Source: an uncultured Spirochaetaceae bacterium
Lineage (GTDB): Bacteria; Spirochaetota; Spirochaetia; Sphaerochaetales; Sphaerochaetaceae
Assembly: GCA_945910645.1 (NCBI GenBank)
Contig: CAMDZB010000013.1
Span: 1-35,332, forward strand
Reading direction: 5' to 3'
Length of the DNA: 35,332 nucleotides
Numbering within the stretch: position 1 is the stretch's first letter; each line of letters begins with the position of its first letter. The notes under the pieces were generated by a model that was given only the letters and a program-made list of their open reading frames with translations, was not told where the DNA came from and ran no database searches. Shown here piece after piece: positions 1,964 through 35,294 of this stretch. The position numbers and the translations under genes are program-made.

Positions 1964-2816
1964 GAGGGCAATACTATTAATTTCTCTCTTACTTATTATT
2001 TCATGTTCATCACTCTCGCCATTTAGGGGTAAGGGTTACTCAACCTTTGCATCCGCATTCGGAGAGAGAGGTGAACTTGTAGTGTTAATTGATACAGAGA
2101 AGTTTGATATTACATCGTATGTTAACAGCCCTGAGCTTCGAGAACGCTCTGAGTACCTTACGCTTGTGCGGGAGCCTAATGGTTCGGTTATCGGTGCACT
2201 TGAGGGGGCATACCCTGCGGATGTAATACGATATGCCACGGGAAAGAACAGAAACGTCTTTGGTCAATATAGCGTGATGCAGCCTGATAGCGGTATATTT
2301 CTGTTCACAGATGCATCCCTTGATGATGCGTATGAGCGTTCATTTAAAAACCGAAAATTAGTCACAACGGAGAGTGAACTTAAAGAGCGCTTCCGCAATG
2401 CTCTCTCAATCTACGGTTATGACGTTAGAGGGCTCATTGGGGATGAACTTAACGATATTGTTTTTAATAAGATTGATATTAATATTAACAAAAACGATAC
2501 GAGTGTTAATAATGATACTGGATTTGTGCTATCAGGCACTGTTACAATCGACGATGAGGGGGCTTTCAAACGCTTTCTAACGTACTTTAAAACCTGGTAT
2601 ATTGGTGATGTCAGGCGTTCGGGCGGGAATGTTGATCTTAATCGTATCAATGAGTCGATTAAGGTTGGGGAGGATCATCAAAATACTCTTATTTTCACTA
2701 ACCTTCCTTGTTACTCGTTTGATCTCGGGCGCCTAACTTTGTCAGACTGCACCCGCCCAACTTGGCCTACCACAAAGGTATGTCCTTCGTTTGGGGCGGG
2801 TTTGCTTTCGCGTTAG
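1950..2816 (+). CDS. Predicted lipoprotein with a repeat-derived C-terminus
   Basis: I do not recognise the family. The TTG start at 1950 lies inside the end of ileS, giving a 14-base overlap that suggests translational coupling. Residues 1-18 form a lipoprotein signal peptide (basic MKKTKR, then a hydrophobic core), with a lipobox ending in Cys19 (LIISC), so the mature protein is probably lipid-anchored. The body is soluble-looking with no obvious catalytic motif. From base 2714 onward the reading frame runs through a repeat found elsewhere in the window (inverted at 3869-3991 and related at 23122-23244). The last 34 or so residues, starting near SFDLGRL, are therefore translated repeat DNA rather than ancestral protein. 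The gene is either truncated by insertion of the repeat or has simply lost its original stop. Natural length is unknown. Confidence 0.7.
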   Translation: MKKTKRAILLISLLLIISCSSLSPFRGKGYSTFASAFGERGELVVLIDTEKFDITSYVNSPELRERSEYLTLVREPNGSVIGALEGAYPADVIRYATGKNRNVFGQYSVMQPDSGIFLFTDASLDDAYERSFKNRKLVTTESELKERFRNALSIYGYDVRGLIGDELNDIVFNKIDININKNDTSVNNDTGFVLSGTVTIDDEGAFKRFLTYFKTWYIGDVRRSGGNVDLNRINESIKVGEDHQNTLIFTNLPCYSFDLGRLTLSDCTRPTWPTTKVCPSFGAGLLSR

Positions 2817-2837
2817 TCATCCCGAATCTCAAACTCG
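2714..2837 (+). repeat. Palindromic repeat element, copy 1 (124 bp)
   Basis: Runs from CTCGTTTGATCT to ATCTCAAACTCG. It is an imperfect palindrome: outer arms TTTGATCTCGGG and CCCGAATCTCAAA pair, middle arms ACCCGCCCAAC and GTTTGGGGCGGGT pair, and an inner GGCCTACC/GGTATGTCC hairpin has ACAAA as its loop. A second copy lies inverted at 3869-3991, near-identical over the first 84 bases with one single-base indel. A diverged copy at 23122-23244 has the same length and the same inner hairpin but a different middle stem. It overlaps the 3' end of the upstream lipoprotein frame. Function unknown: a structured RNA, a recombination site or a non-autonomous mobile element are all possible. Confidence 0.85.
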
Positions 2838-2965
2838 TTACTCATTTAACCTGCGGGCAAATTCGTTGTCTCTCTCCACCTCAATGCTCACTCACATACA
2901 TAAAGTATGCTCGCTTCGCAATTGGGTGGGTTCGCCTTCGACCTTGCGCTCACATCTTAAACTCG
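2834..2965 (+). repeat. Repeat module between two AAACTCG motifs (132 bp)
   Basis: The module begins at the CTCG that closes the palindromic element and ends at the next AAACTCG (2959-2965). Eighteen bases in, it carries TGCGGGCAAATTCGTTGTC (2852-2870), also present at 2986-3004 and, with one change, at 23264-23282. Its end (TTGCGCTCACA, then TTAAACTCG) resembles the end of the corresponding module at 23241-23376. The middle differs between copies. Short open frames across it have no ribosome binding sites, and I do not regard them as genes. Confidence 0.6.
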
Positions 2966-3047
2966 TTAGGATTATTGACTAAATTTGCGGGCAAATTCGT
3001 TGTCTTAGAACCCTAAGCCTTGCTCGTTTACAGCAAGTAAAGTTGCA
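2962..3047 (+). repeat. Repeat module with TGCGGGCAAAT motif and small hairpin
   Basis: Starts at the CTCG of the preceding AAACTCG. Bases 2986-3047 match 23264-23324 closely: both read TGCGGGCAAAT(T/C)CGTTG, then CTTAGAACCCT, then GCCTTGCTC, then a TTTAC/GTAAA hairpin. The five-base hairpin stem is conserved while the loop differs (AGCAA here, AAAAA at 23 kb), which hints that the stem is kept. The module leads directly into the tandem array at 3052. Confidence 0.65.
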
Positions 3048-3124
3048 CCTTCATACGGGTTCCATCTTGCCGTTATGCGAGGCTTGAGGCTCAGGATGAG
3101 GAGTACTTAAAAACAAATTTTTAA

Positions 3125-3269
3125 ATTTGCTTGAAATCACTGTGTCCATATAAGAAATTATTCTATTAGCGACTCTGGGATGTAATAGCCTCTTAGTACC
3201 ATTAAACAAAACATCTTTGATGTACTTGTTCAAGAGAAAATTTCGTGGACACTGATTTCACCAGCAAAT
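3125..3269. repeat. 145 bp core with terminal inverted repeats, copy 1
   Basis: Begins ATTTGCTTGAAATCACTG, then TGTCCA, and ends TGGACACTGATTTCACCAGC, then AAAT; the two ends are imperfect inverted repeats of about 24 bases. Inside are smaller self-complementary pieces: CTATTA with TAATAG, ACATC-TTT-GATGT and CTTGTTCAAG. The layout suits either a small non-autonomous transposable element or a multi-branched RNA. There is no transposase. A minus-strand frame of about 60 codons crosses it, with a TTG start and no clear ribosome binding site; I do not call it a gene. Confidence 0.75.
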
Positions 3270-3341
3270 CCATACGGGTTCTATCTTGCCGTTATACGAG
3301 GCTTGAGGCTCAGGATGAGGAGTAGTAAAAACAAATTTTAA

Positions 3342-3486
3342 ATTTGCTTGAAATCACTGTGTCCATATAAGAAATTATTCTATTAGTGACTCTGGGATGT
3401 AATAGCCTCTTAGTACCATTAAACAAAACATCTTTGATGTGCTTGTTCAAGAGAAAATTTCGTGGACACTGATTTCACCAGCAAAT
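3342..3486. repeat. 145 bp core with terminal inverted repeats, copy 2
   Basis: Same length and ends as the copy at 3125-3269. Visible differences are GTGACTC for GCGACTC and GTGCTTG for GTACTTG. Followed by CATATTGCGCGCGCG, an alternating purine-pyrimidine run not present after copy 1. Confidence 0.75.
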
Positions 3487-3591
3487 CCATATTGCGCGCG
3501 CGAGGTCGAAGTCACAGATTCATACGGGTTCCATCTGGCACTTGTGCGAGGCTTAGATTGGGATGAGGAGTAGTTAAAAATAATTTTTTAA

Positions 3592-3736
3592 ATTTGCTTG
3601 AAATCACTGTGTCCATATAAGAAATTATTCTATTAGCGACTCTGGGATGTAATAGCCTCTTAGTACCATTAAACAAAACATCTTTGATGTGTTTGTTCAA
3701 GAGAAAATTTCGTGGACACTGATTTCACCAGCAAAT
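3592..3736. repeat. 145 bp core with terminal inverted repeats, copy 3
   Basis: Same length and ends as the other two cores. It differs mainly at GTGTTTG, which opens one base pair of the CTTGTTCAAG hairpin. Followed by CATATTGCGTGTGCG and the GAGGTCGAAGT segment shared with unit 2. Confidence 0.75.
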
Positions 3737-3793
3737 CCATATTGCGTGTGCGAGGTCGAAGTTACACCTTTCTACGGGTTTTTGTACTTAATG

Positions 3794-3872
3794 CGAGGCT
3801 TAGATTGGGATGAGATACTAGGAAGCCAGGCGAGGCAAGTGCAGGACATAACGTATTAGATAGCACTGCGAG
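3794..3872 (-). repeat. Inverted repeat module sharing two blocks with the 23 kb repeat region
   Basis: Read on the minus strand it starts CTCGCAGTGC, continues through TATCTAATACGTTATGTCC, and ends CCCAATCTAAGCCTCG. Bases 3841-3872 match 23373-23404 at 31 of 32 positions. Bases 3802-3830 match 23208-23236 at all 29 positions (CCTGGCTTCC, then TAGTATCTCATCCCAATCT). At 23 kb these two blocks lie in different modules, so pieces have been reassorted. GCAGTGC can pair with GCACTTGC to form a hairpin around the ACGTTATGTCC loop. Confidence 0.75.
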
Positions 3873-3991
3873 TTTGATATTCGGGATGCATAACGAGGAA
3901 GCAAACCCGCCCCAAACGAAGGACATACCTTTGTGGTAGGCCAAGTTGGGCGGGTGCAGTTGACAAAGTTAGGCGCCCGAGATCAAACGAG
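3869..3991 (-). repeat. Palindromic repeat element, copy 2 (123 bp, inverted)
   Basis: Inverted partner of 2714-2837, so the two copies form a long inverted repeat enclosing about 1 kb. Read on the minus strand it starts CTCGTTTGATCT two bases beyond the terminator of the minus-strand ABC operon and ends ATATCAAACTCG. The middle stem and inner hairpin are the same as copy 1 apart from a one-base deletion; the 3' arm has CGTTATGCATCCCG where copy 1 has CGTTAGTCATCCCG. The outer arms pair better here (TTTGAT with ATCAAA, TCGGG with CCCGA). Confidence 0.85.
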
Positions 3992-3993
3992 CG

Positions 3994-4030
3994 AAAAAAA
4001 AAGCGGCGAAACAACTCGCCGCTTTTTTTG
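3994..4030 (-). terminator. Intrinsic terminator of the minus-strand ABC operon
   Basis: A strong hairpin, AAGCGGCGA and TCGCCGCTT around AACAAC, is flanked by A and T runs on both sides, so it can work in both directions. It lies directly after the stop codon of the permease gene ending at 4032. Confidence 0.9.
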
Positions 4031-4031
4031 T

Positions 4032-5105
4032 TTATCTATCCTCACGGAAATAATTAACGCCAAGCGATGCCGGCGGCTGCTTATCCTTAATGTTCCTGGT
4101 GCTCGTAATAACAAGCACAATAACAGTAACAACGTAAGGAAGAATCTTATATAGTTCCTGAGGGAAGAATGGAACTATAATTCTCAGGTACATGATCATG
4201 AGTGCACCAAAGAGCACTGAGCTCCATGTGGCCTGAATTGGATGCCATGAGCAGAAGATAACAAGTGCAACTGCAAGCCAACCGGTACCGGCAAGTGATG
4301 CTTCAATCCACACACAGCCTGCTGTAGTCATCGTGTATACCATACCGCCGATTGCTGAAACTCCGCCACCGATGATGGTAGCAAGATACTTGTATAGAGT
4401 GATGTTGATACCAGCCGCATCTGCTGTAACTGGAGACTCACCAACAGCTCTTAAATACAAGCCTTTCTTAGTCTTTGTAAGGAACAAAAAGACTGCTATT
4501 GCAAGTAGAATTGAAAGGTAGAAGAAGATAGACTGATCAAATAGCACTCTACCAATAACTGGAATTCTCTTTAAGAAGTCTGGCATAAACTTGTTGTCAA
4601 ATGCTGCCTTAAGGTCGTTAGAAACAGTAACATAACCACCAACCTTGTGTCTTCTTAGCTCTCCGACGAACTTAGCAACGCCTGTTCCAAACGTTGTCAT
4701 TGCAAGACCTGTAACATTCTGGTTTGCCCTCAGAGTTACAGTGATGAACGAGAAGAGTAGGCCTGCAAATGCTCCAATTGCGAATGCAGAGAGGATAGCA
4801 AACACTATTGCAAGGAATGGGCTTGCATTACCTTCGCCAACAGACATCTCATACATGTTAGGAGCAATAAGACCAAAGATTCCGCCCATGTACATTATAC
4901 CTTCAACACCAAGGTTCATGTTACCAGATTTCTCTGTGATGATCTCACCAAGGGTTCCAAGCATAAGAGCAGTACCATATGCTCCTGCTGCTGCAAATAG
5001 GTATACAAGAGAAGGGAAGATTAGCCCGAGTATAAAGCATACCACGATTATGGCAATTGGAAGAATGATCTTCTTATAGGATACTTTAGAATTTAACTTT
5101 TTCAT
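4032..5105 (-). CDS. Nucleoside-type ABC transporter permease (NupQ/PnrE-like)
   Basis: Inner-membrane permease of the branched-chain amino acid/sugar/nucleoside permease family (BPD_transp_2). Multiple hydrophobic segments cover most of its 357 residues. The SGNMNLGVEGIM stretch after the second segment is characteristic of the second permease in nucleoside importers such as B. subtilis NupQ and spirochaete PnrE. The ATG is preceded by GGAGG, and it overlaps the upstream permease stop by one base (TAATG), so the two are probably translationally coupled. It is the last gene of the operon and is followed at once by a terminator. Substrate is inferred from family: purine or other nucleosides, with riboflavin (RfuD-like) an alternative. 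Confidence 0.85.
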   Translation of the reverse strand: MKKLNSKVSYKKIILPIAIIVVCFILGLIFPSLVYLFAAAGAYGTALMLGTLGEIITEKSGNMNLGVEGIMYMGGIFGLIAPNMYEMSVGEGNASPFLAIVFAILSAFAIGAFAGLLFSFITVTLRANQNVTGLAMTTFGTGVAKFVGELRRHKVGGYVTVSNDLKAAFDNKFMPDFLKRIPVIGRVLFDQSIFFYLSILLAIAVFLFLTKTKKGLYLRAVGESPVTADAAGINITLYKYLATIIGGGVSAIGGMVYTMTTAGCVWIEASLAGTGWLAVALVIFCSWHPIQATWSSVLFGALMIMYLRIIVPFFPQELYKILPYVVTVIVLVITSTRNIKDKQPPASLGVNYFREDR

Positions 5106-9785: not shown

Positions 9786-11705
9786 ATGAGTGATCACGAA
9801 CATCACGAACACGAACATCACGAACACGAACACGAGCATGAGGATGAGGAGCTATCCTTAAAATCATGGTTGATTTCATTAGGATTGTTTTTAGTTATAT
9901 CTATTGTTGATCATGTATTTGACATTGAGGCACTGTTGAGAGTAGGTCTTCCTGCAACTATAAGCCGTATAATCTATGTAGGCCTCTGGTTCTGCCTATA
10001 CGTATTTATATCATACGATGTATTAAAAGGCTCGATTATGGGCATAATTCACCGTGATCCGTTTGATGAGCTACTCCTTATGAGTATTGCATCCCTTGGT
10101 GCATTCTGTATCGGCGATTTCAGCGAGGCAATATCTGTAATTCTATTCTACAACCTTGGCGAGTACTTCTGTTCACTTGGCGAGGAGAAGAGCAAAAAGA
10201 ACCTTAAGAGCCTACTTGCGCTTCAGCCTGAGAATGCAAACCTTGTAGGCGAGGATGGAAAGCCTTCAGTTGTAAGCGCATCATCCCTTAAAAAAAGCGA
10301 TGTAATATTGATTATGGCCGGAGAAAGAGTGCCTGCAGATGCCACAGTAATAGAGGGTCAGACCTTCCTTGATACATCATCTTTAACAGGCGAAAGTAAG
10401 CCTATGAAGGTTGAAAAGGGGTCAAAACTGCTTTCAGGAAGCATGAACATATCAGGTGCTGTAAAGGCCGTTGTGGAACTGCCATCATCAGAGAGTACAG
10501 CGGCAAGAATTATGAACCTTGTGAGTGATGCGTCAAAGACAGGATCACAAAGGGAGAAGTTCATCACTCGTTTTGGACGTATTTACACGCCAGCTGTAGT
10601 CTGTGCATCTCTAGTGTTATTTATAGGAATGGGTGCAATCACAGGACTTTGGAGCATATGGTTTACACGTGCCCTTAACTTCTTAGTAATATCCTGTCCA
10701 TGTGCGCTTGTGATCTCAGTTCCACTGACATACTTTATGAGTATGGGTTCTGCGTCAAAGAAGGGCGTACTCATCAAGGGTGCTATCCACATTGAGGATC
10801 TTGAGAAGGTTAAGACGATGTGTTTTGACAAAACTGGTACGCTTACAAAGGAGACTCTAAACGTCATCCGCTTTATCCCTGAGGAGAAAGAAACGGAGCT
10901 TCTAACGCTTGCACTAAAAGGCGAGGCTAAATCAAAGCATCCAGTCGCCCTAAGCATCCAGAGAGCCTGTACAGAGCGTGGAATTGAAAACATGGCATCA
11001 TACAACAACATTAAGGAGATTGCAGGTAAGGGCATTGTAGTTCACGATAATGATGATACAATCCTTCTTGGAAATACAAAGCTATTGAAGGACTTTGGCA
11101 TTGATGAGGAAGAAAAAGATGAGGTTAACACCATCGTAAACGTTGTGAAGAACGGCGTATTTCTTGGAAAGATCGTAATCGGCGATGAGGTCAAAGAAGA
11201 GGCGCCTTATGTAGTTAGCACCCTCAAGAGCATGGGAATTAAAACCGTTATGCTCACAGGGGACAGGGAAAAGTCTGCAAAGCATGTAGCAGACGAGCTT
11301 AACATCGACTCGTATAAGGCTGGCCTCCTTCCACTTGATAAGGTAAACGAGGTTGAAAGACTTAAGAAGGATAATCCTAAGGTTGGATTTATAGGAGACG
11401 GCATAAACGATGCTGCTGTGCTTTTAAAGTCGGATGTTGGTATCTCCATGGGTGGAATATCATCAGATGTGGCAATCGAAAGCTCATCAATCGTGCTTGT
11501 AAACCCATCGTTAAAGGGCTTAATTGTAGCCCTAAAGAGTGCAAAGAAGACAATGGCCATAGTTAAGGAGAACATTATATTCTCACTTGGCGTAAAACTA
11601 TTGATTCTAATACTATCTGTATTCGGTATCGGCGGCATGTGGCTTGCAATCTTTGGAGACGTCGGGCTTGCAATCCTTGCGATTTTAAACGCTTTAAGAG
11701 CATAA
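9786..11705 (+). CDS. P1B-type heavy-metal translocating ATPase (Zn/Cd/Pb exporter type)
   Basis: Integral membrane pump of 639 residues that exports divalent metal using ATP. The first 23 residues are a His/Glu-rich tail with ten histidines in short repeats; the CxxC HMA domain common in ZntA/CadA is absent. Then come membrane segments, the actuator motif SSLTGESKP, the transmembrane metal motif CPC at residues 304-306, the phosphorylation motif DKTGT with D348, and the hinge GDGINDAAVL. CPC with a ZntA-like C-terminus indicates Zn/Cd/Pb specificity rather than Cu. GGAGGAGG upstream lies in the end of the ArsR gene, and the two genes form one transcription unit. Induced by metal through the repressor, by inference from context. 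Confidence 0.92.
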   Translation: MSDHEHHEHEHHEHEHEHEDEELSLKSWLISLGLFLVISIVDHVFDIEALLRVGLPATISRIIYVGLWFCLYVFISYDVLKGSIMGIIHRDPFDELLLMSIASLGAFCIGDFSEAISVILFYNLGEYFCSLGEEKSKKNLKSLLALQPENANLVGEDGKPSVVSASSLKKSDVILIMAGERVPADATVIEGQTFLDTSSLTGESKPMKVEKGSKLLSGSMNISGAVKAVVELPSSESTAARIMNLVSDASKTGSQREKFITRFGRIYTPAVVCASLVLFIGMGAITGLWSIWFTRALNFLVISCPCALVISVPLTYFMSMGSASKKGVLIKGAIHIEDLEKVKTMCFDKTGTLTKETLNVIRFIPEEKETELLTLALKGEAKSKHPVALSIQRACTERGIENMASYNNIKEIAGKGIVVHDNDDTILLGNTKLLKDFGIDEEEKDEVNTIVNVVKNGVFLGKIVIGDEVKEEAPYVVSTLKSMGIKTVMLTGDREKSAKHVADELNIDSYKAGLLPLDKVNEVERLKKDNPKVGFIGDGINDAAVLLKSDVGISMGGISSDVAIESSSIVLVNPSLKGLIVALKSAKKTMAIVKENIIFSLGVKLLILILSVFGIGGMWLAIFGDVGLAILAILNALRA

Positions 11706-21795: not shown

Positions 21796-23130
21796 ATGGC
21801 GAAAAGAGAAATTGACATGCTTAATGGGTCTATGTGGAGGAGTATATTCCTATTCAGCATTCCGTTGATGTTCTCTAACGTCCTACAGGTGCTGTTTAAC
21901 ATGTCTGATGTGATGGTGGTTGGACGTTTTGCAGGTCCAATAGCCCTAGGATGTGTGGGCAGCACAACAACTATTGTTCAGCTATTTATGGGTGTCATGT
22001 TCGGACTCGCAACCGGTATCAACGCCATTGTTGCCTTCCACATCGGTGCCCGTGAAGGCGACATGGTACGCCGTGCAGTACATTCTGCAATCATCATTTC
22101 ATTGATATTCGGCGTGAGCATCTCCGTAATCGGACTCTCGCTTTCACGCTCATTCCTTAGCGCTCTTAATACAAAAGATGAGCTTATCCACGGCGCTACG
22201 CTCTACCTCTCTGTGTACCTTCTTGGAGCACCGGCACTCTCACTCTACAACTACGGCAATGCAATCCTCAGCGCTGTAGGGGATACAAAACGCCCGCTTG
22301 TTTATCTTTCGATATCAGGAGTGGTGAATATACTATTGAACCTCTTGTTCGTGATTGTATTTGAGCTTTCCGTGCTAGGAGTTGCACTTGCAAGCGTAAT
22401 TTCACAGTACCTATCTGCCTTTATGGTCATCAGGCATTTAACGCGCGTTGATAGTGACTATAAACTTCAATTTAAGAGTATAAAGTACGACAAGGTACTT
22501 GCGCATGAGATACTGCGCATCGCGATTCCTACAAGCTGTCAGTACGTGTTGTTCTCACTTTCGAACCTCTTTGTACAGTATTCCATCAACTACTTTGATC
22601 ATAGGGTGGTTGAGGGAAGTGCCGCTGCAGGAAATGCGGACAACCTTGTATACGACGTGATGGCGGCATTCTACACAGCCTGTACGAGCTTTATTGCACA
22701 GAACCTTGGTGCAAGAAAGATTAAGCGCATCAAAAAGGCGTATCTTATCACGCTTTCTTACTCATTCATTTTGGGATTCGTCTTTGGCGGACTGCTTCTG
22801 ATATTCCGCGTGCCGTTCTTAAGCCTCTTTACAACTGATAGCGATGTTATCTACTTTGGTGAAATGAAGCTGTTTGTAATGGCGTCCTCCTATGCAATTT
22901 CTGCATTTATGGATAACGCAGCCGCCGCATCAAGAGGACTTGGAAAGAGCGTAGGACCAACCGTTATAATTGTTCTTGGCACTATCGTATTCAGGATCCT
23001 CTGGATATACACCATCTTTGCCCATTTCCACACGATTTATTCACTGTACTTGCTATACCCAGCATCATGGATATTTACTGCGGTTGCGGCTAATATCTAT
23101 TTCTTCCTCAATTATAAAAGGCTCGTTTAA
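21796..23130 (+). CDS. MATE-family multidrug/metabolite efflux protein
   Basis: Inner-membrane antiporter of 444 residues with about 12 hydrophobic segments. The N-terminal MLNGSMWRSIFLFSIPLMFSN and VMVVGRFAG pattern and the duplicated PTSCQY repeat in the second half are typical of the DinF/NorM-like MATE proteins of gut bacteria. It starts one base after the pepD stop. Exported substrate unknown. The last two codons and the stop (CTC GTT TAA) lie inside the start of a repeat element (CTCGTTTAATCT at 23122), so the 3' end has been shaped by the repeat. Confidence 0.92.
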   Translation: MAKREIDMLNGSMWRSIFLFSIPLMFSNVLQVLFNMSDVMVVGRFAGPIALGCVGSTTTIVQLFMGVMFGLATGINAIVAFHIGAREGDMVRRAVHSAIIISLIFGVSISVIGLSLSRSFLSALNTKDELIHGATLYLSVYLLGAPALSLYNYGNAILSAVGDTKRPLVYLSISGVVNILLNLLFVIVFELSVLGVALASVISQYLSAFMVIRHLTRVDSDYKLQFKSIKYDKVLAHEILRIAIPTSCQYVLFSLSNLFVQYSINYFDHRVVEGSAAAGNADNLVYDVMAAFYTACTSFIAQNLGARKIKRIKKAYLITLSYSFILGFVFGGLLLIFRVPFLSLFTTDSDVIYFGEMKLFVMASSYAISAFMDNAAAASRGLGKSVGPTVIIVLGTIVFRILWIYTIFAHFHTIYSLYLLYPASWIFTAVAANIYFFLNYKRLV

Positions 23131-23244
23131 TCTTGAGCGATCTACGTCGTCAGGCTGGCGGCCTCGGCGCTTGGCCTACCAGTAAGGTATGTCCTGCGCT
23201 AGCCGAGCCTGGCTTCCTAGTATCTCATCCCAATCTTAAACTCG
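23122..23244 (+). repeat. Palindromic repeat element, copy 3 (123 bp, diverged)
   Basis: Starts CTCGTTTAATCT and ends ATCTTAAACTCG, the same length as the copies at 2714 and 3869. The inner block TTGGCCTACC-AGTAA-GGTATGTCC (23171-23194) lies at the same offset as in those copies. The flanking middle stem is different: CTCGGCGC pairs with GCGCTAGCCGAG here, where the others use ACCCGCCC with GGGCGGGT. Conserved ends and loop with a replaced but still complementary stem suggests that structure is what is kept. It provides the stop codon of the MATE gene. Confidence 0.8.
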
Positions 23245-23376
23245 CCAAAAAGCTTGTTGAATCTGCGGGCAAATCCGTTGTCTTAGAACCCTGAGCCTTG
23301 CTCATTTACAAAAAGTAAAATCGCGTCGGCATCAGGAACCTGCGACTTAGTCTTTGCGCTCGCAATATTCAACTCG
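23241..23376 (+). repeat. Repeat module between CTCG motifs (136 bp)
   Basis: Runs from the AAACTCG closing the palindrome to CAACTCG at 23370-23376. Bases 23264-23324 match 2986-3047 (TGCGGGCAAAT, CTTAGAACCCT, GCCTTGCTC and the TTTAC/GTAAA hairpin). The end, TTTGCGCTCGCA then TTCAACTCG, resembles the end of the module at 2834-2965. No gene is visible in 23131-23520 apart from these modules and the promoter downstream. Confidence 0.65.
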
Positions 23377-23404
23377 CAGTGCCATCTAATACGTTATGTC
23401 CTGC
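23373..23404 (+). repeat. 32-base repeat block matching 3841-3872
   Basis: CTCGCAGTGCCATCTAATAC then GTTATGTCCTGC, identical to the minus strand of 3872-3841 except for one T-to-C change. Here it is truncated after CCTGC and runs into the promoter of the phosphohexomutase gene. Confidence 0.75.
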
Positions 23405-23415
23405 CTAGTGTGGTC

Positions 23416-34040: not shown

Positions 34041-35294
34041 TTATAGAATTTCACTATCCTCAACAATGAGGTGAGCATAGATTCCGCGCCTTCTGATCCC
34101 TGGCGTTGTGAGTAGGGAGTAATCTGCAATGTCTATCGTAAATACATCCTCAACAGCCACATCCTTAAGCATCATAAAGTCAAGACGCATCTCGTTATTG
34201 TCGCTCTTGTACGTCCAATCCGAGTAGAGAGGGCCTGATGATGAGGAATTCCATCTTGTGTTTTCAATAGCATCGTAGTAGTTATTATCTGTAAGTGTTG
34301 ATATAATTTGCCATCGGCTTTCAGCCTCGTAGCGCGTTGGTGAACTCCATGATGAAAAGTCCTGAGGCGATCTCTCATTAGGGCTTAAGAGAAGCACAAC
34401 AGGCGTGTTCTTATAAAGCTCAATGTTATTATAGAGGCTTTCGTACTCATTAGGGTAGAGTGGATCAATTCTATACTGAAGATTTAAATCTTCCTCATTG
34501 TACTCTTCCTTCGTTGTGAATGTTAGAATCTTTGTGCTTGGTGTAAAGAGAGGCTCTTGAGAGCTCAGGTCTTTAAGTAATATGATTGAATCCTCACCTT
34601 TGAACGCTTTGTAGTCGCCAAAGAACGATGCAAGGTCATTCTGCTGCTTCTCGTTTGCGCCTGTGAATGCGATACAATCAGGCATGTCGTAAGCAAAAAA
34701 TCCGCGTATTCTTGATGAAAGAAGGCTTATTGAAATTCCTGTGTCCTTTAATGGAAGGAATAGAAGGCTCACTTCCTTGTATCCTGTTGCTAAATTGTTG
34801 CTCTCAGTAACATCAGGCGTAACAACTTCTGTTACAGTTTCAACACTTTCCTCATCGCTCTTGTTATTATTAGGTTGAAGAAGAACAACATCAGAAATTT
34901 GATTTTCACTCTCGCTATTTGTATCATCAGATGATGTTTTTATCTCATCACTCTTAATCTCATCAACCTTAATTTCATCACTCTCTACATTGCTCTCTAC
35001 ATCACTGATATCCTTGTTTCTCTCAAGTTCTTTCTTCTCAGCCTCTATTCGTTTTCTCTCAAGTTCTTTCTTTTCAGCCTCTATTCGTTTTCTCTCCGCT
35101 TCTTCTTGTCGGCGCTGTTCCTCTAATCTTTTTTTCTCCTCAAGAGCACGGCGTTCTTCCTCAAGCTTACGCCTCTGTTCAATTTCGTATTTAGACTCAG
35201 GAATCTGAGAGAAATCAACGTATCCTTTCATCTTTGTGGCACAGGATGAGAGCATAACAATAACAAGTGTTAAAACAACAAATAATCTTTTCAC
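34041..35294 (-). CDS. Predicted lipoprotein with a charged coiled-coil region
   Basis: I do not recognise the family. The GTG start at 35294 opens a 417-residue protein with a lipoprotein signal peptide and lipobox LSSC (Cys18). Residues from about 38 to 92 are almost all Glu, Arg, Lys, Ala and Leu, a likely coiled coil that contains a 36-base tandem duplication coding ERKRIEAEKKEL twice. An acidic linker with DEIK repeats follows to about residue 165, then a globular C-terminal domain of about 250 residues with no recognised motif. It may reach from the membrane into the periplasm as a TolA-like spacer, which is inference from composition only. It has its own terminator. Confidence 0.75.
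   Translation of the reverse strand: MKRLFVVLTLVIVMLSSCATKMKGYVDFSQIPESKYEIEQRRKLEEERRALEEKKRLEEQRRQEEAERKRIEAEKKELERKRIEAEKKELERNKDISDVESNVESDEIKVDEIKSDEIKTSSDDTNSESENQISDVVLLQPNNNKSDEESVETVTEVVTPDVTESNNLATGYKEVSLLFLPLKDTGISISLLSSRIRGFFAYDMPDCIAFTGANEKQQNDLASFFGDYKAFKGEDSIILLKDLSSQEPLFTPSTKILTFTTKEEYNEEDLNLQYRIDPLYPNEYESLYNNIELYKNTPVVLLLSPNERSPQDFSSWSSPTRYEAESRWQIISTLTDNNYYDAIENTRWNSSSSGPLYSDWTYKSDNNEMRLDFMMLKDVAVEDVFTIDIADYSLLTTPGIRRRGIYAHLIVEDSEIL
35021..35092. repeat. Two-copy 36-base in-frame tandem repeat
   Basis: Bases 35021-35056 and 35057-35092 differ at one position (TTCTTCTCAG versus TTCTTTTCAG). The unit length keeps the frame and adds twelve residues to the coiled coil of the lipoprotein, so copy number could vary between strains. 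Confidence 0.85.

Follow-up and report, generated by a model that had tools for sequence, protein, structure and literature searches.

Hairpin modules with a common stem foot form mosaic arrays at gene ends in a Spirochaetaceae genome and resemble palindromic repeats

Rickettsia palindromic elements (RPE) are stem-loops of 105-146 bp that occur as several families in a single small genome, are inserted in frame into genes, and have no known transposase (PMC2229807, PMC10969869). REPs measure 20-40 bp, with stems of 5-13 bp and a GTAG or CGTC tag at one end, and CGTC-tagged REPs have been reported in Spirochaetes without a transposase (PMC3733652). Here, a set of repeats is described from an uncultured Spirochaetaceae bacterium, beginning with a window of 35,332 nucleotides (the whole stretch of DNA that was analysed), which is contig 13 of a 33-contig, 1,152,629-base genome (G000; assembly 95.7% complete). 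Spirochaetales MAGs are the closest named relatives of a protein encoded in the window, in keeping with a small-genome spirochaete. A preliminary description of the window had divided an intergenic block at 2714-3991, and a second block near 23 kb, into modules meeting at a short AAACTCG or CTCG motif, and had proposed that they were shuffled by a site-specific or junction-directed process. We consider it more probable, at roughly 0.68, that the block is an array of palindromic elements that are mobile but non-autonomous, like RPE, and that are shuffled mainly by recombination between copies.

AAACTCG is found four times in the 35 kb, with one further inverted copy, and four of these five lie inside the two blocks. 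Three of the module boundaries described earlier carry the motif exactly where it had been placed (2831-2837, 2959-2965, and 23238-23244), as does the inverted boundary at 3869-3875, which reads CGAGTTT; the remaining one, at 23370-23376, reads CAACTCG instead. The stretches reported as common to the two blocks were recovered as reverse complements, 3802-3830 matching 23208-23236 at 29 of 29 bases and 3841-3872 matching 23373-23404 at 31 of 32, versus only 4 matching bases in a direct (non-complemented) reading. The edges of the first block, 2714 and 3991, coincide with the outer ends of a hairpin present in two inverted copies, and the arms that bound the block are 95% (2746-2837/3869-3960) and 100% (2714-2744/3961-3991) identical. 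The parts of both blocks are collected in Table 1.

Table 1. Components of the two blocks in the window and tips of the long module types. Energies are in kcal/mol; R1 and R2 are the covariance models described in the text.
Feature	Position	Strand	Evidence	Remarks
P-type hairpin	2713..2838	- (CGAG strand)	fold -49.1, z -5.15; R2 84.3 bits	foot supplies AAACTCG at 2831-2837; inverted copy of 3869-3991; overlaps 3' end of upstream ORF 1950-2816
S-type hairpin	2840..2966	-	fold -41.7, z -5.62; R1 117.7 bits (training-set copy)	foot supplies AAACTCG at 2959-2965
Partial, diverged Q-like hairpin	2974..3093	-	R2 44.5 bits, E 5e-7	
Three tandem copies of a 217-250 bp unit	3052..3814	no strand		
P-hairpin left arm fused to short-unit end (..GATAGCACTG)	3792..3868	+	sequence matches	origin of both stretches common to the two blocks
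P-type hairpin	3868..3992	+ (CGAG strand)	fold -54.6, z -6.58; other strand -42.1; R1 42.3 bits (P absent from R1 training)	3' end 40 bp from stop of convergent gene 4032-5105; adjoins terminator-like hairpin
Terminator-like inverted repeat AAAAAAAGCGGCGA/TCGCCGCTTTTTTT	3996..4029	no strand		between P hairpin and convergent gene
P-type hairpin, subtype arms GGCTCGGC/GCCGAGGCC	23121..23245	-	fold -49.1, z -4.47; R2 67.7 bits	starts at stop codon of gene ending at 23130
Q-type hairpin	23252..23377	-	fold -49.1, z -5.37; other strand -41.5; R1 139.3 bits (training copy)	foot supplies CAACTCG at 23370-23376
Short-unit end fragment (AGGACATAACGTATTAGATGGCACTG)	23373..23408	-	sequence matches	upstream of Q hairpin
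P type, tip GGACATACC..GGTAGGCC				
Q type, tip TTTTACTTTTTGTAAA				
S type, tip CATACTTTGTGTATG				

Other repeats were encountered in the same window. The tandem unit of the first block contains a sequence of ~145 bp with imperfect ends, GAAATCACTGTGTCCA...TGGACACTGATTTC (noted at window 3110-3780, at about 1998-2208 of locus L029, and at 2185-2252 of locus L031), and a promoter-like spacing, TTGCTT-16-TATAAG; besides the three tandem copies one more lies at C1:33497-33707, and this sequence may be a separate MITE. Short tandem repeats also fall inside ORFs: CACGAACATCACGAA where a heavy-metal P-type ATPase begins (window 9795-9832), and repeats of 15-36 bp in ORF 34041-35294 (window 34942-35103).

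Comparison of stretches of the genome with one another established that the repeat is real and occupies ~22 loci in 1.15 Mb, nearly all of them intergenic; the block at 2714-3991 as query gave 64 local matches genome-wide and the 23 kb block gave 40. This genome has 21 occurrences of a terminal pattern, CGAGTTNRA-N90-120-TYNAACGAG, and none of the reversed control pattern; each of 138 other genomes of the family has the terminal pattern at most once. The long modules are complete, imperfect hairpins of 122-127 nt from foot to tip that share one architecture among several sequence types, nearly all folding as one hairpin interrupted by purine-rich internal loops. The remainder of the loci consists of short units (30-38 bp, ending in GATGGCACTG or similar), half-modules, and mini-hairpins. 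The discrete modules, their constant boundary motif, and their different order and orientation between loci were all borne out, and the order, number, and type of modules differ at nearly every locus, with some recurring neighbors such as a short unit ahead of a hairpin. Many copies are truncated, are hybrids, or fold poorly. Some five half P modules start with CGAGCCC, each of which looks like the product of a deletion between the GCCCC of the linker and the GCCCC of the P arm. Arms of different subtypes are combined in two P modules, one in L034 and one in L031, which shows exchange of arms at the hairpin tip; the L034 hybrid folds poorly (-29.8 kcal/mol). At L043 (1-635, on contig 17 of the genome) a 5S rRNA gene at 255-370 is flanked on both sides by hairpin arrays, so these may interrupt an rRNA operon.

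The constant junction finds its explanation in the layout of the stem foot, GCGAG-TTTGA...TCAAA-CGAGC. In an alignment of the feet of 27 full modules, the outermost pair is G-C in 20, A-T in 4, and G-T in 1, and the next pair inward is C-G or T-G. G then stands opposite A in all 27 and A opposite G in 26 of the 27, followed by G-C, T-A, T-A, T-A or G-C, G-C or A-T, and A-T. In this pairing CGAG faces CGAG as a tandem G·A mismatch within the stem, one pair from its end. Such a foot accounts for both the constancy of the motif and its appearance as a direct repeat, and the feet of neighboring modules give rise to the apparent junction motif. CGAG was also considered as a target-site duplication; this was judged unlikely because it lies inside the stem and the pair outside it covaries, from G-C to A-T.

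Alignment columns further show that compensatory changes preserve the fold as the sequence diverges. Double-change cells numbered 29 for P modules against 9.6 in shuffles and 42 for Q/S modules against 14.3, counts drawn from related sequences of one genome in cells that are not independent, and the pairing collapsed for both P and Q/S when partner columns were slid by 1-3 positions. It should be noted that an alignment by MAFFT only across all hairpin types lost the structure. Single window hairpins on the CGAG strand fold with z scores of -4.5 to -6.6, and this strand, the one used in the models, is the more stable in 23 of 27 copies from this genome, in 7 of 7 elsewhere, and in all 18 copies in model orientation from the sister species (G001). 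The gap between strands is large with RNA parameters (-54.6 versus -42.1 for 3868..3992 and -49.1 versus -41.5 for 23252..23377) and small with DNA parameters (-26.1 versus -22.9 and -19.3 versus -18.7). This asymmetry suggests that selection or propagation may act on the transcribed hairpin. No Rfam family matches the hairpins.

With genes called simply as ORFs, in draft assemblies, 16 of 20 model-strand 3' ends of arrays in this genome and 17 of 25 in G001 face the 3' end of a gene, and nine and ten of these, respectively, lie within 10 bp of the stop codon. The loci of this genome are intergenic or at gene ends; some elements supply the stop codon of the gene, others start after the T run of a terminator, and gene ends with several stacked copies occur. 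Outward array ends in G001 are 3' ends in 25 of 28 instances, indicating that the arrays are inverted sets with their 5' ends inward, a plan that matches the window block. Local GC skew was of mixed sign, and replication strand was set aside as an explanation of the orientation. At the 23 kb locus, the one locus compared in this way with the sister species, gene order was not conserved and no empty site was found.

Searched as DNA against 40 relatives, the block matched only its own genome, and the P tip pattern had no match in collections of genome contigs and viral contigs. Two covariance models were used: R1, trained on Q and S only, and R2, broader, with G001 hairpins included in its training. 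R1 recovers P modules of the genome, though P was left out of its training, and gave 14 matches in G001, which was held out (best E 9e-7), 3 (best E 0.0016) in G026, which belongs to a different family of the class, and weak matches in G013 (one) and G014 (two), with none in the remaining genomes at E up to 1. R2 gave 47 matches in G001, a draft genome, 4 in G026, 1 in G337, and, in another family, 7 in G316 and 2 in G161, both genomes of 2.8 Mb; several of the weaker ones in G316 have the better fold on the non-model strand and may have been taken on the wrong strand. Under strict filters, 291 of 297 genomes of the class showed none. The G001 hairpins, of at least three types, measure 116-125 nt and have ends such as ATCCTTGAA...TTCAAGGAT or TTTGACGAA...TTCGTCAAA in place of CGAG. 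The model searches show that the sister species, and a few other spirochaetes, carry a related family of predicted hairpins with different feet; literature searches turned up no account of this family from spirochaetes. That the foot is species-specific, quite different from CGAG in the sister species, while the fold is common is the main ground against a fixed junction site. Short units between GGATT...AATCC feet are likewise part of the G001 arrays. In the arrays at L213, L216, L163, and L222, inverted hairpins are separated by spacers of 46-60 bp with small inverted repeats of their own, of the AAGGTAATTAC...GCCTTACCTTAA type, which form another short module class. Related hairpins of G316 (L196, L197, and L199) are read in frame where Rhs/YD-repeat-like proteins begin, a name given because the sequence resembles YD repeats, and encode a common predicted 40-residue peptide, FENRRGKYKELGKKVPQAYRVYVEETFLPCDAVIARIFSK.

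From these patterns we infer that the hairpins move, arrive at gene ends, and diversify through recombination among copies. The hairpins would be non-autonomous mobile repeats of the RPE, ERIC, or MITE-like kind, of which new copies would land at gene ends, beside stop codons or terminators; arrays would then diversify as copies recombine at their common feet, tips, and short homologies. Recombination of this kind would yield both the mosaic and the constant junction without a junction-specific recombinase. Against mobility stand the missing empty site and broken synteny at the locus compared and the failure to find a mobilising gene, and so strict a placement at gene ends might stem from function rather than mobility.

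A rather unlikely variant is that the hairpins are selected and propagated as RNA: the transcript of the CGAG strand would be the active form, the foot would vary from species to species with the fold retained, and new copies would be set with their 3' ends against stop codons or terminators by some enzyme other than a Y1 transposase or a reverse transcriptase. It is also unlikely, to a slightly greater degree, that the hairpins are a functional RNA and not selfish, for example an antisense or end-of-gene structure held at gene ends by selection. The compensatory changes and RNA-type strand asymmetry agree with such a role, as do a tip conserved across families and the precise placement at stop codons. 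However, many copies are truncated, hybrid, or poorly folding, the hairpins are sparse or absent in most of the 297 genomes, types and feet differ from species to species, and several copies may be stacked at one gene end.

Transposition of single-stranded DNA as in REP/RAYT or IS200/IS605 systems, in which a transposase since lost or left unassembled would have acted on hairpins bearing a foot tetranucleotide, is improbable. The conserved tetranucleotide, the polarity of insertion, and the strand asymmetry would suit it, but the Y1 (HUH) transposase (PF01797) is absent from the 95.7% complete assembly of this genome, from its sister, and from G161, G316, and G337. Further, the tetranucleotide stands at both ends and is neither GTAG nor CGTC, the hairpins measure 122-127 nt compared with 20-40 bp for REPs, and the asymmetry is weak with DNA energies.

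The process originally proposed, in which a site-specific recombinase (integron-like, Xer-like, or other) swaps modules at CTCG, was not supported and is very improbable, the motif being accounted for as the base of each hairpin stem and the sister-species hairpins lacking it. Its appeal lies in modules with a common constant boundary, most arrays of this genome holding one orientation, and in the tyrosine recombinases present, which comprise only an XerC/XerD-like pair and one phage-type integrase. The clustering of breakpoints predicted for it was seen in part: breakpoints are enriched at CGAG, with 33% of them within 3 bp of it versus 20% of random positions, yet two thirds lie elsewhere, and recombination between repeats thus fits better than a site-specific enzyme. 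Moreover, attC-type cores were found at the ends of 0 of 27 modules, and the best integron integrase score (TIGR02249) was 141.9 against a cut-off of 265. An XerD-like gene (L040 1305-2180) lies ~260 bp from one hairpin array (2438-2672), at 1 of 22 loci, which is probably a coincidence. A single long repeat decayed into pieces can practically be dismissed, since despite some recurring neighbors the genome's own list of loci contradicts it, with module order, number, and type varying from locus to locus and each module a complete fold.

Preferring recombination among mobile palindromic elements, we see the hairpins as bearing on how transposase-less palindromic repeats such as RPE spread. Their many copies, several types, covariation, placement at gene ends, and diverged sister set make movement, target choice, and a role as RNA testable, and covariance models can tie these repeats together across species even when searching DNA with the repeat itself gives no match.

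Among described systems, integron attC sites, known from Treponema integrons (PMC3607928), are likewise hairpins of similar length that follow genes in fixed orientation; the present hairpins differ in being spread over many chromosomal loci without an integron integrase over the cut-off, and an attC or CALIN assignment was rejected, with RYYYAAC and GTTRRRY end cores in none of the 27 modules and low integrase scores. A retroelement-borne repeat was also rejected, as no reverse transcriptase (PF00078) was matched in G000, G001, G161, or G316. REP/RAYT systems share the hairpin, the conserved foot tetranucleotide, and a location mostly downstream of genes (PMC3733652), whereas the spirochaete hairpins are longer and carry CGAG within the stem at both ends; membership was rejected for want of a 20-40 bp GTAG hairpin and a Y1 transposase. 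ERIC, RUP, Correia, and BOX repeats, which are MITE-like, are also short intergenic palindromes, sometimes clustered and nested (PMC2229807, PMC10969869); unlike them, the present hairpins have no identified TA or other target duplication and no parent insertion sequence, and between species their structure is conserved rather than their sequence. The earlier judgment that no known family fits was too strong, as RPE offer a close parallel, compared here by description only. The hairpins fall within the RPE size range as one long stem-loop, occur in P, Q, and S types and many copies (~22 loci) in one small genome, are intergenic, with copies in spirochaete relatives that are predicted to read in frame into protein genes, and have no dedicated transposase that could be found. 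They probably differ in sequence, and they do differ in host phylum, in their tandem mosaic arrays, G·A foot, and placement against gene 3' ends, and in that a predicted coding peptide was seen only in the G316 copies. By analogy, then, RPE are the nearest parallel, and the hairpins are best described as of the palindromic-repeat kind rather than filed as RPE.
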